33,705 nucleotides of DNA from Bacillota bacterium (GCA_009781235.1 WQYM01000007.1:1-33705), one strand, 5' to 3'; counted from the stretch's first letter, positions 4,426 to 10,942 are shown. Translations and numbers: made by a program. Notes: a model not told the origin generated them from the letters alone.

Positions 4426-5013
4426 ATGGAATTAAAACCCGTCGCCCATACTCAAAAGCCGAAGTATCCGCATAAGTATGAAATTGACGTTAATAAGGTG
4501 TTGCTAGAAAACCGCCCGAAGGCTTGGTTTGCAAAGCCGATTGTAGGTCTGGCGCTTTCGGCCGTCATGGCGGCGGGGTTGGCCGGATGGGATTGTAGCG
4601 GAGACAGCGGCATAACCGGAGGAATAGATGAGTGGGTCCCCGTCTATGTTTCCGACGCCGACGCCCTAACCATCATCGCAGACGAATTGTCTAAATCCGG
4701 GTTTGGATTTGTGTCGGGCGCCGGTGAAAGTGACGCCGAAGATAACGATTTCGACTTTGACGGATATTTTTTAAACGGCGAAAACAAAATTGACGTCGAA
4801 TATGTCTCGCAAGAAGATTGCGAGGCGCAAAAGTATCCGGTCTTAACTTATCAGAATTATTGTTACCCGCAAAACACCGCAACGCAATTAAAAGAGCTTT
4901 ATCCGGACGCCGCCGTTTTTTACGACCCGGTGACGGAATGGCAAGAGGGCTCCGAAGAACACATCCGCAACCAGGTGCTCGACTTTATCGAATGGCTGCT
5001 GGGTATGGAGTAA
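4426..5013 (+). CDS. lipoprotein-like paralog 1 (no canonical lipobox)
   Basis: MELKPVAHTQKPKYPHKYEIDVNKVLLENRPKAWFAKPIVGLALSAVMAAGLAGWDC; shares DALTIIADELSKSGF and QVLDFIEWLL with the next two genes. Confidence 0.8.
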   Translation: MELKPVAHTQKPKYPHKYEIDVNKVLLENRPKAWFAKPIVGLALSAVMAAGLAGWDCSGDSGITGGIDEWVPVYVSDADALTIIADELSKSGFGFVSGAGESDAEDNDFDFDGYFLNGENKIDVEYVSQEDCEAQKYPVLTYQNYCYPQNTATQLKELYPDAAVFYDPVTEWQEGSEEHIRNQVLDFIEWLLGME

Positions 5014-5105
5014 AATATTTTTTCTTTCCGGTGAAAATTTTTTGATATTTTTACGTCTATATTGTTAGAGCCTTTTAAAAGCCACAAAACACGAGGTATC
5101 CGCAC

Positions 5106-5855
5106 ATGGGACTAAAGCCCGTCGCATTTTCTAAAATGCCGAAATATCCGGCGCAACACGAAGTCGAACTCGACAAAACGCTGCTCGAAAACCGCCCGAA
5201 GGCTTGGCTGGCTAAACCAATTGTCGGGTTGGCGCTTTCGGCTATCATGGCGGCGGGGCTTGTCGGTTGCATTCCGGCAAGCGAGCGCGCGGGAAGAACC
5301 GGGAACGGCGACGGCGCAACGAAGACCGAGCAAAGCACCGACAACGATAACAATAATGGCAATACCGATGGGACCGGAAACAATAACGGAAGCAACGGGA
5401 ATACCGGCAACAACGACAACTGGGAAGACTGGGGGGTCACCGGCGGCATACCGATGCTCTCTTACGTCCATCTTGCCGACCGCGATGCCCTAACGATTAT
5501 CGCGGATGAATTAAGTAAGTCCGGATTTAGTTTTGTGCAAAATCTCGCCGAACAAAGCGACAAAAATTCCAGCTTTGCTTTTGACGGCTATTTCTTAAAC
5601 GGTGAAAACAAAATCGACCTTGAATACGTGTCCAAGGAAGATGCCGAAAATCAAAAATATCCGGGGCTAGCATATCAGGGCGAGGGCTATTTCGAGTTTT
5701 ACGACGCACGTTCCGTCTCGATGGAGTTAAAAAAAGCCTACCCCGATGCCGCCGTGTTTTTTGACCCTGTGACGGATTGGCAACCAACTTCCGAAGAACT
5801 CCTCCGCGCCCAAGTGCTGGATTTTATCGAGTGGCTGATGAGCGTGGGAGAGTAA
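5106..5855 (+). CDS. lipoprotein-like paralog 2 with Asn/Gly-rich linker
   Basis: MGLKPVAFSKMPKYPAQHEVELDKTLLENRPKAWLAKPIVGLALSAIMAAGLVGC; NDNNNGNTDGTGNNNGSNGNTGNNDN linker; C-terminal QVLDFIEWLMSVGE. Confidence 0.85.
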   Translation: MGLKPVAFSKMPKYPAQHEVELDKTLLENRPKAWLAKPIVGLALSAIMAAGLVGCIPASERAGRTGNGDGATKTEQSTDNDNNNGNTDGTGNNNGSNGNTGNNDNWEDWGVTGGIPMLSYVHLADRDALTIIADELSKSGFSFVQNLAEQSDKNSSFAFDGYFLNGENKIDLEYVSKEDAENQKYPGLAYQGEGYFEFYDARSVSMELKKAYPDAAVFFDPVTDWQPTSEELLRAQVLDFIEWLMSVGE

Positions 5856-5886
5856 ACAAATTCGTACCGAATTCGGCATGTCGAAC

Positions 5887-5949
5887 GCGGGTCATTGCTC
5901 CCGCCGAAGCGAAATCCAACGTTACGGCGGGAGCAAGCCCCCGCCCTAC
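5887..5949. repeat. class B inverted repeat, degenerate left arm
   Basis: gcgggtcattgctcccgccg ... cggcgggagcaagcccccgccctac. Confidence 0.75.
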
Positions 5950-5980
5950 ATTGTAAACACAAAACACGAGGTGACTCATT

Positions 5981-6727
5981 ATGGAACTTAAACCCGTACC
6001 CTTTTCCAAAAAACCGAAATATCCGGCGCAACACGAAGTCGAACTGGATAAAACGCTCTTAGAGCACCGCCCGAGGGCTTGGTTTGCAAAGCCGATTGTC
6101 GGCCTCGCGCTCTCCGCCGTTATGGCGGCGGGGCTGATTGCTTGCGTTCCGGCAACCGGGCGCCCGGGAAAAACCGGCGACAGCGGCAACGGCGCAACAA
6201 AGACCGAGCAAGGAAACGGGAACGGGAGCGGAAACACTAACGGGAATACCGGCAACACCGATGCCAACACCGAAGACGATAACGGCTGGGACGTCGGGTT
6301 ACCTCAAGGCGATATGGCGCCTCCCCCCTACGTCCGCCTTTCCGACAAGGACGCACTCATCATTATCGCGGACGAATTGTCAAAGGCGGGCTTTCGCGTT
6401 ATAGAAGGGAGCCCTTTATCATCCGTCCGCATTGACGGAACCGTTGTGGTCGATGAGTCCGCCGGAAAAACGGTGCTGCTTGAATACGTTTCCGTGGACG
6501 ACTATATCGCGCAAAAATACCCATTTTCGGAGCTTACCTATCTACCGGAAGATTACTACGGCGACTATTATGAAACAGGCAAGCTTGCGAACGAGTTAAA
6601 GGACATCTACAAGGGCGCCGCCATATTTTACGACCCGATGCGCTTCGACGAGGCGTCCGCCGAAGAACAGCTCCGCGCCCAAGTCCTCGACTTTATCGAG
6701 TGGCTTTTGGCGGTGGGGAGCGAATAA
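5981..6727 (+). CDS. lipoprotein-like paralog 3
   Basis: MELKPVPFSKKPKYPAQHEVELDKTLLEHRPRAWFAKPIVGLALSAVMAAGLIAC; DALIIIADELSKAGF; QVLDFIEWLLAVGSE. Confidence 0.85.
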   Translation: MELKPVPFSKKPKYPAQHEVELDKTLLEHRPRAWFAKPIVGLALSAVMAAGLIACVPATGRPGKTGDSGNGATKTEQGNGNGSGNTNGNTGNTDANTEDDNGWDVGLPQGDMAPPPYVRLSDKDALIIIADELSKAGFRVIEGSPLSSVRIDGTVVVDESAGKTVLLEYVSVDDYIAQKYPFSELTYLPEDYYGDYYETGKLANELKDIYKGAAIFYDPMRFDEASAEEQLRAQVLDFIEWLLAVGSE

Positions 6728-6788
6728 CGGAACAGATAAAAAACCGTAGGGGTCGCACTTCCCGAGCGACCCGCACCTTATTAACCGT

Positions 6789-6900
6789 GCTGTCACGGGG
6801 TCAGGCTTACTGACAGCAGACTGTTCTTTTGACATGTATTTCGGATCTCTCAAATTATCTGCGATACTGCCGCTGTCAGTAAGCCTGACCCCGTGACAGC
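6789..6900. repeat. class C perfect 29-bp inverted repeat, 54-nt interior
   Basis: gctgtcacggggtcaggcttactgacagc (6789-6817) and gctgtcagtaagcctgaccccgtgacagc (6872-6900), exact reverse complements. Confidence 0.97.
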
Positions 6901-6932
6901 AACCCTTCGCATTGCGACCAAAGGGAGCTCTC

Positions 6933-8045
6933 ATGCATTACACCTTACACCTTACCGCCGACTGTAATTTAAAATGTGATTACTGCTACGTTAAACGCGG
7001 AGAAGTCGGCATGAAAAAGGAGGTCGCGTTGTGCGTAATCGACAACGCGATTGCCGCGGGTCAAAAAAAGACGGGCGTCGCGTTTTTCGGCGGCGAGCCG
7101 CTGCTGCATAAGGATTTAATCCGCGATACCGTCGCATACGCCCGTAAGGCATCCGAGGGTACGGAATGCAAGTTTTTCTTTAAACTCACCACCAACGGGG
7201 TGCTGCTGGACGAGGAGTTTATACGGTTTTGTAAACGGGAAAACATCTTTACCGCCATCTCGCTTGACGGCCACGAGGCGGCGCACAACGCGCACCGGAA
7301 AGATTTGGGAGGCAAAGGGAGCTATGAACGCGTCGCCGCGCACGCAAAGCTTCTCTTAAAGCGTATGCCCAATTCCCCCGTCATGATGACGGTGAATCCC
7401 GACACCGTAAAATACTATGCCGAGTCCGTCGAACATCTGCACAATCTAGGTTTTTTCTATATCCTGTGCGGCATCAACTACGCCGCGAAATGGCGCGAGG
7501 CCGATTTAAAGGAGCTTGCCCGCCAATACAAAAAACTCGCCGAATTTTACTACGCGGCTATGATGGCGGAGAAAAAGCTGTACCTCTCCCCCTTTGAGAT
7601 GAAAATTTACAGCCACGTCCACAACCGCACCTACTGCGGGGAACGCTGCGAATTAAGCAAGAACCAAATCTCGGTAGGTCCAGACGGTTCTGTCTACCCC
7701 TGCATCGAATTTGTCGGCGACCCCGTATATAAAATCGGCGATATACATAGCGGCGTAGACCCGGCCGCGCAACAAAAATTGTTTTTAGAAAACCGCAAAG
7801 AAAAAACGGCGTGCGAGGCTTGCGCCATCCGCATCCGCTGCAACCATTACTGCGCGTGCCAAAACAAACGCGCCACCGGCTCCATCGACGAAGTCTCCCC
7901 CGTTTTGTGCCGCCATGAGCAAATCCTCTTGCCGATTGCCGACAAACTCGCGGAGCGCCTTTATAAAAAGCGCAGCGCGTTGTTTATCCAAAAACACTAC
8001 AACGATTATTACCCGATATTGGCGATGATGGAAGAAAAAGCTTAG
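6933..8045 (+). CDS. radical SAM protein with SPASM-like C-terminal Cys cluster
   Basis: LTADCNLKCDYCYVKRG (CxxxCxxC), FFGGEPLL, SLDG, C-terminal CGERC...GPDGSVYPC...CEACAIRIRCNHYCAC...LC; RBS gggag. Confidence 0.92.
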   Translation: MHYTLHLTADCNLKCDYCYVKRGEVGMKKEVALCVIDNAIAAGQKKTGVAFFGGEPLLHKDLIRDTVAYARKASEGTECKFFFKLTTNGVLLDEEFIRFCKRENIFTAISLDGHEAAHNAHRKDLGGKGSYERVAAHAKLLLKRMPNSPVMMTVNPDTVKYYAESVEHLHNLGFFYILCGINYAAKWREADLKELARQYKKLAEFYYAAMMAEKKLYLSPFEMKIYSHVHNRTYCGERCELSKNQISVGPDGSVYPCIEFVGDPVYKIGDIHSGVDPAAQQKLFLENRKEKTACEACAIRIRCNHYCACQNKRATGSIDEVSPVLCRHEQILLPIADKLAERLYKKRSALFIQKHYNDYYPILAMMEEKA

Positions 8046-10018: not shown

Positions 10019-10942
10019 CTAAAAGTCGTAAACGTTTACGCTTGTCACCGTCGCTTTGACGGGCAAGCCCGTCGCAATCGCAATCATCCGGTTCGTCTCG
10101 ACAAATTGCCAGCTTTCATCGGGCGCTAAATTTTTATGATTAAAAGGAATCGTCGAAAGCGCGGTTCCGTTTTCGTCAAATAAGGTGACGGAAATAAAAA
10201 TCGACTTCATCTCTTTTTTAAACGTGTTTTTTACGGTACCGGCGATGCTAAAATACCGGTAATTCCCTTGCGTGCGCGTAAGCGTCAGCACCGGTTCCTC
10301 CGTTATTACCAAATCCTTTGCCATGGGTTTATCCTGCGGAACCGTAATCTCACAGGCTGCCCTAACGGCTGAATTGACCGAGGATGTCGCGGTAATCGTC
10401 GCCGTGCCGGTTTTCTTTGCCGTTACCACGCCGCTTGCATCGACCGAAGCCACAAAGATATCCGAGGAAGACCACTTTACCTTCCGGTTATTATCGGTAT
10501 CCGGGCTTACGGTAACCGTCGCACTCAAAACCGCAATGTCGCCCACTTCCAACGTCACATCGGTGCGGTTCAGCGCGACGCTATCTACCGCCGCCTTGCC
10601 CGAGGACGAGCCCCCGAACGGGTTATCCGTATAGTCGCCTAAGTCGTCAAAAAGGGACGACATGCCGTTCATCACCCAAACAATCGGCAAAACGACCGAA
10701 AGCACGATCACCGCAAACGCGACGCACGAAACAATAATCGTCGCCTTTTTATGATTTTTAAAAAAATCGGAGATATGTAGGTTGAAAAAAGAAAATGAAT
10801 TCTGTTGCGGAGGAGGAGGCGCGGGAGAAGGGGGTGGCGGAGGAGGCGCCGTCACCTTTTCTTCGGGCAATACCCCGCCGCAAAATTCGCATGTCCTGGC
10901 GCCCTCTTTAATCGAGGCGCCGCAATTGGTACATTTAATCAT
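10019..10942 (-). CDS. zinc-ribbon membrane protein with Ig-like (Big_2) domain
   Basis: MIKCTNCGASIKEGARTCEFCGG; Pro-rich linker; TM segment; VDSVALNRTDVTLEVGDIAVLSATVTVSPDTDNNRKVKWSSSD...ASGVVTAKKTGTATITATS. Confidence 0.85.
   Translation of the reverse strand: MIKCTNCGASIKEGARTCEFCGGVLPEEKVTAPPPPPPSPAPPPPQQNSFSFFNLHISDFFKNHKKATIIVSCVAFAVIVLSVVLPIVWVMNGMSSLFDDLGDYTDNPFGGSSSGKAAVDSVALNRTDVTLEVGDIAVLSATVTVSPDTDNNRKVKWSSSDIFVASVDASGVVTAKKTGTATITATSSVNSAVRAACEITVPQDKPMAKDLVITEEPVLTLTRTQGNYRYFSIAGTVKNTFKKEMKSIFISVTLFDENGTALSTIPFNHKNLAPDESWQFVETNRMIAIATGLPVKATVTSVNVYDF

Follow-up and report, generated by a model that had tools for sequence, protein, structure and literature searches.

The window, a 33,705-nucleotide stretch of DNA forming part of contig C7 of a Bacillota genome (2.53 Mb, 247 contigs, 87% complete), carries three co-directional paralogous genes followed by a gene for a radical SAM/SPASM protein, with a class II aldolase gene and a 4-alpha-glucanotransferase gene as flanks. 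The features of the locus are as follows, with positions counted from the first nucleotide of the window.

4426..5013 (+): paralog 1, 195 aa; PxYP n-region, hydrophobic segment, Trp at the lipobox Cys position, near-zero linker, C-terminal domain
5106..5855 (+): paralog 2, 249 aa; PxYP n-region, lipobox LVGC (Cys55), Asn/Gly/Thr linker, C-terminal domain (residues 119-249)
5106..5222 (+): first 39 residues of paralog 2 (extended n-region, PKYP...LLENRPKAW); the proposed leader for recognition by the maturase
5460..5852 (+): paralog 2, C-terminal domain; predicted to fold as alpha-beta-beta-beta-alpha-beta
5981..6727 (+): paralog 3, 248 aa; PxYP n-region, lipobox LIAC (Cys55), linker, C-terminal domain
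6788..6901 (no strand): inverted-repeat element, perfect 30-nt repeats around 54 nt, inside the 205 bp that separate paralog 3 from the enzyme gene
6933..8045 (+): radical SAM/SPASM enzyme, 370 aa; nearest characterized family PapB, under its cutoff; C-terminal FIQKHYNDYYPIL tail

The three paralogs and the enzyme beside them

The initial annotation had described three tandem, lipoprotein-like paralogs with a common n-region and C-terminal domain, followed by a radical SAM protein with CxxxCxxC and a SPASM-like cluster. The tandem paralogs are confirmed: they are 52 to 63% identical to the first, and their relatedness is reflected in the DNA by three 228-nt and three 121-nt repeat copies. All share a charged n-region of ~37 residues with PKYP and LLE.RP.AW, a hydrophobic segment, a variable linker, and the C-terminal domain; the PKYP...LLENRPKAW segment of paralog 2 has its counterpart in paralogs 1 and 3, and in the host genome this type of n-region occurs only in the three enzyme-linked copies. 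The lipoprotein description fits paralogs 2 and 3 and fails for paralog 1, which reads AGLAGW-DC at the lipobox with a TGG codon (Trp; window 4588-4590) at the +1 position; because Trp stands where the sisters have Cys, paralog 1 is probably not lipidated there. Across the clade, the pattern finds a lipobox +1 Cys in 16 of 32 partners. The variable Asn/Gly/Thr linker noted earlier likewise exists in paralogs 2 and 3, and nearly all of it is absent from paralog 1. A Pfam/NCBIfam scan of the three paralogs gave no family above cutoff, an Rfam scan no match, and a PDB sequence search no relative. As the gap that holds the inverted-repeat unit is a few bp in relatives, this unit is probably a small inserted element. 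Near the locus, on the minus strand (10019-10942), the window also encodes a multi-domain membrane protein with zinc-ribbon, Big_2, and FxLYD domains.

For the enzyme, the ATG at 6933 (MHYTLHLT) is preferred as the start over the TTG at 6912 because nearly all homologs begin there. Both annotated cluster motifs are present: C11/C15/C18 form the CX3CX2C motif (PF04055, 67.4 bits against a cutoff of 29.5), and the seven-Cys SPASM set is complete (C239, C257, C294x2C297x5C303x3C307, C326; PF13186, 25.2 bits against 21.5). The SAM-cluster Cys and the Aux-II-type Cys are invariant in 26/26 clade enzymes. The Aux-I-type Cys (239, 257, 307, 309) have been lost together from three Bacillota enzymes (L025, L028, and L128), which keep the SAM cluster and the Aux-II-type set; the partners of these enzymes have another Gly-rich segment, similar to GG.G..PFYVVY.

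The best NCBIfam model is that of the PapB ranthipeptide maturases (NF047865; PapA/freyrasin), which it matches nearly end to end and without an N-terminal extension, and the PapB gene, too, adjoins its precursor; the score of 235.6 bits is nevertheless below the cutoff of 340, and the enzyme in the window has a KHYN tail. The SCIFF maturase model (TIGR03974) scores 175.7 bits against 425, its alignment beginning at model position 99. By sequence profile the closest solved structure is the SCIFF maturase CteB (PDB 5wgg, E 4e-62), also a radical SAM enzyme with a SPASM domain, but with ~95 more N-terminal residues that are absent here and with a small six-Cys peptide as its substrate. QhpD/PeaB (TIGR03906) and the anaerobic sulfatase maturases (TIGR03942) are SPASM enzymes that, as proposed here, modify proteins rather than small peptides and whose products are exported, but the window enzyme is far under both cutoffs (143.7 against 453 and 124.8 against 349 bits, respectively), and its partner belongs neither to the quinohemoprotein gamma subunits nor to the sulfatases.

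Linkage of enzyme and partner within the family and across phyla

We scanned 74 genomes of the window's taxonomic family with an enzyme profile and a partner profile, and both matched the same 3 genomes, at the same loci and side by side; the chance that two genes would coincide in three genomes out of 74 is 1 in 64,824. The enzyme profile gave two further, weaker matches (G001:C11 and G012), both from a different clade. The sister genome G001 has one paralog, a few bp upstream of a 64%-identical enzyme, and in G014, which belongs to another genus, two paralogs directly precede a 39%-identical enzyme; both G014 paralogs were located by adjacency and not by homology, and nonetheless share that n-region and the C-terminal signature. 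Complete searches of ten further genomes placed the detected partners at radical SAM loci. The refuting condition set by the initial annotation, a paralog family usually lacking any radical SAM neighbor, was thus put to the test and did not hold.

A scan of named genomes and phylum-level samples recovered enzymes from Bacillota, Myxococcota, Planctomycetota, and Verrucomicrobiota, and the enzyme-partner pair with its PxYP tag before an export signal is found in at least four bacterial phyla. Enzymes scoring at least 410 bits made up 34 rows representing 31 distinct loci, 29 of which have, within ~550 bp, an exported partner whose leader carries (P)xYP; the other two (L183 and L188) stop at contig ends. 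A mechanical test that asked for a same-strand gene within 300 bp with (P)xYP and a hydrophobic segment found the partner in 22 of the 34 rows. Inspection of the misses showed that a partner exists but was overlooked by the pattern at L031, L054, L164, L165, L167, L181, L182, and L185, and that the partner of L131 is 551 bp from the enzyme. Among related enzymes scoring below 270 bits, the same test matched 1 of 75, or 0 of 74 once L125, a cut copy of a family locus and the sole raw match, was removed. On the raw counts the two sets differ with a Fisher p of 2e-13, a contrast drawn with a pattern that was learned from the family and whose misses were examined by eye more closely than the controls.

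No other conserved neighbor accompanies the pair at these loci, where the remaining flanking genes vary from one to the next, and no dedicated peptidase or transporter gene is linked to it. The arrangement resembles RiPP loci in having a precursor gene beside a modifying enzyme, conserved across genomes, and differs from them in that the window's clade has no short leader-core precursor. Enzyme and partner distances over 26 loci are correlated (r=0.81; 0/5000 permutations as high), a value to which joint inheritance contributes and which it can produce on its own. The single exception to the linkage is L265 (genome G1020), where the partner domain forms the end of a glycoside hydrolase fusion, has no leader, and occurs in a genome with no enzyme match; the fusion gene adjoins another carbohydrate-active gene. 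In a related enzyme clade (L113, L114, and L200-L202), the PxYP partner is absent from the flanks read, and at L113 and L114 there are small adjoining genes of 137 to 143 aa.

These observations bear directly on whether the radical SAM gene is unrelated to the paralogs and merely adjacent to them. The 205-bp gap in the window, with its inserted element, would fit such an accident, but the gap is a few bp in two relatives and the adjacency recurs at many loci across phyla; the probability of chance adjacency is practically negligible, as it is refuted by the co-occurrence in 3 of 74 genomes and by the cross-phylum linkage. Comparative evidence of this kind strongly supports a dedicated enzyme-partner pair. 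The role suggested for the radical SAM protein, as candidate maturase of the paralogs, gains support from the co-occurrence, from the adjacency across phyla, and from the lack of such adjacency at related enzymes, and we judge it likely that the locus is an enzyme-substrate pair in which the radical SAM/SPASM enzyme modifies the exported proteins.

The n-region and the two types of partner

In the window's group, which we call domain-type, partners consist of the n-region, a signal segment, a Gly-rich stretch, and the C-terminal domain with the signature LSExEA...D..d...IxFExVS..D...FYDP...LRxQVxDFIxWL. Within the first 40 residues of 32 such partners, [YIL]P is found in all 32, P.[YIL]P in 30, and PxYP in 27, against a PxYP background of 1.8% of 1283 other genes at the loci; this contrast is somewhat inflated for the short-partner set, which was gathered partly with the motif, and to a lesser degree for the domain-type set, some of whose members were located via adjacency or domain homology. 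The n-region is 37 to 47 residues long in 29 of the 32, those where the measure works. The suggestion that it could be a leader-like recognition segment gains support from this near-constant length of ~37 to 47 residues with PxYP across phyla. Such conservation is consistent with a leader that would be required for modification and later removed.

Extensions of the n-region, such as YSIRK or ESPR, also occur in other secreted proteins. The PxYP segment sits in the n-region of a signal peptide, as these comparable extensions do, and could itself be a secretion or targeting determinant, with the enzyme acting on something else nearby. We find this quite improbable, since the n-region goes with the enzyme rather than with secretion as such (the host genome has it in no protein besides the three linked paralogs, and the family in the same 3 of 74 genomes) and no other conserved neighbor is at hand as a possible substrate.

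The other group of partners comprises precursors that are short and often repetitive; their leaders are of the Sec-lipobox or Tat (RRxFL) type and also contain (P)xYP. These relatives belong to the same enzyme superclade and have the same design, with PxYP before a signal peptide, but their mature parts are short or repetitive, they have no C-terminal domain, and their enzymes lack the KHYN tail; in the window's clade partners are 195 to 249 aa with a predicted folded domain, and short precursors are found only in the sister clade. On the enzyme tree the domain-type label needs 4 changes against 25.9 in shuffles, so the domain-type enzymes appear strongly clustered, which does not imply a single clade. 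A KHYN-like tail is present in 25 of 28 enzymes with domain-type partners, 0 of 40 with short partners, and 2 of 69 of the rest; judged by this distribution, the tail marks enzymes predicted to serve the domain-type partner. Partners of the relatives gave nothing above cutoff in Pfam or NCBIfam, except for one extra domain in L028, whose partner (L028:6819-7988) has an additional C-terminal domain resembling the copper amine oxidase N-terminal domain (PF07833, E 5e-12).

Because the prediction for the whole of paralog 2 was of poor quality beyond the C-terminal domain, this domain was modeled alone (pLDDT 79.8, pTM 0.77), giving the order helix-strand-strand-strand-helix-strand. Most top Foldseek matches were PD-(D/E)XK nuclease-like, but none was significant (best E 0.099), and among the matches listed the probability and TM-score were both at most 0.44. 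Nor is the PD-(D/E)XK catalytic pattern present: the window has D...ExV, without the Lys, and the Glu is lost in several relatives. Having D...ExV rather than D...ExK, the domain is unlikely to be an active nuclease, and with no significant fold match we did not adopt a nuclease function for it.

In anaerobic sulfatases and quinohemoprotein amine dehydrogenase, an active residue is made by a radical SAM enzyme, and the domain could by analogy act as a secreted enzyme or binding protein and obtain its active residue in this way, rather than being a cross-linked peptide-like core. The partner does have a predicted folded domain of ~130 aa that is conserved across phyla, and the enzyme's scored matches include the QhpD and anaerobic sulfatase maturase models. 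We nevertheless hold this variant to be rather unlikely, since the same superclade also serves short, repetitive, probably unstructured precursors, and the domain has neither a conserved catalytic Cys or Ser nor a significant Foldseek homolog.

Possible modification chemistry and a proposed maturation route

The only Cys in paralogs 2 and 3 and in the G001 partner is that of the lipobox, so that a thioether is impossible in the remaining mature part of these proteins; Cys-thioether chemistry was accordingly rejected for paralogs 2 and 3. This bears on whether the locus is a PapB-type ranthipeptide system making Cys-Asp/Glu thioethers. PapB is the best NCBIfam model of the enzyme and some relatives have a conserved Cys in GRGxxGC, but the score is under the cutoff, the precursors here are exported proteins of 195 to 249 aa, and the Cys content of paralogs 2 and 3 and of the sister-genome partner leaves such a system very improbable. 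In many relatives the stretch ahead of the domain reads HGxGRGxxGC, for which the counterparts in the window are WGVTGGIP, SGITGGID, and LPQGDMAP. The stretch is degenerate in the G1020 domain, whose genome has no enzyme, and this one case points to its being enzyme-dependent. No single candidate modified residue is conserved over the whole clade. The motif G[GDE]xxP, chosen after viewing the sequences, is enriched in the short-precursor set (98 against 44 ± 6 in shuffles), a set that was picked mechanically and holds some domain-type rows; it is repeated in the short-precursor relatives and not enriched in the domain-type clade (15 against 14), and we therefore rejected a common GGxP/GDxAxP core for the window.

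Our computations show the genes and their motifs, their linkage and co-occurrence, the parallel divergence of the pair, and the set of Fe-S ligands; from them we infer recognition of the n-region, a modification and its site, and a surface location for the product. In the enzyme-substrate reading, the n-region (PxYP...LLxxxPxRW) ahead of the signal peptide would be recognized by the enzyme in the cytoplasm, and the enzyme would act on the mature part, probably on the Gly-rich segment just before the C-terminal domain or on the domain itself. The modified protein would then be exported by Sec, and signal peptidase (Lsp for paralogs 2 and 3) would cut off the n-region and signal peptide together, so that the export machinery doubles as leader removal. 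A signal peptidase serving as leader peptidase would explain why no peptidase or transporter gene is linked to the pair. Two observations count against this scheme: the substrates are far larger than is usual for peptide maturases, and the enzyme lacks the N-terminal RRE-like extension of SCIFF-type maturases, so that leader binding would use some other surface of the enzyme.

The broader proposal, of a widespread and undescribed class of radical SAM modification whose maturase leader is an extended Sec/Tat n-region, with signal peptidase doubling as leader peptidase and, in the window's branch, a folded surface-anchored domain as the substrate of a non-Cys chemistry, is one on which we are evenly divided. 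We found no description of this enzyme-partner system in the main text of the open-access papers or in the family libraries searched, and main-text passages of the SPASM mapping paper (PMC9062424) do not show it. If the proposal is true, it would describe a phylum-spanning radical SAM maturase family with identified partner proteins, and radical-based modification would be connected with surface proteins that poorly cultured Bacillota, Myxococcota, Planctomycetota, and Verrucomicrobiota export. The pairs would offer testable enzyme-substrate combinations with a chemistry that is probably new, because for two of the three proteins in the window a role of Cys in the mature part is excluded, and PxYP ahead of a signal peptide would be a simple genomic tag for finding further pairs. 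Among the short precursors, those of L168, L170, L190, and L193 are multi-repeat proteins with (P)xYP, G[GDE]xxP repeats, and export leaders of the Tat or other types, and form a possible separate precursor class.
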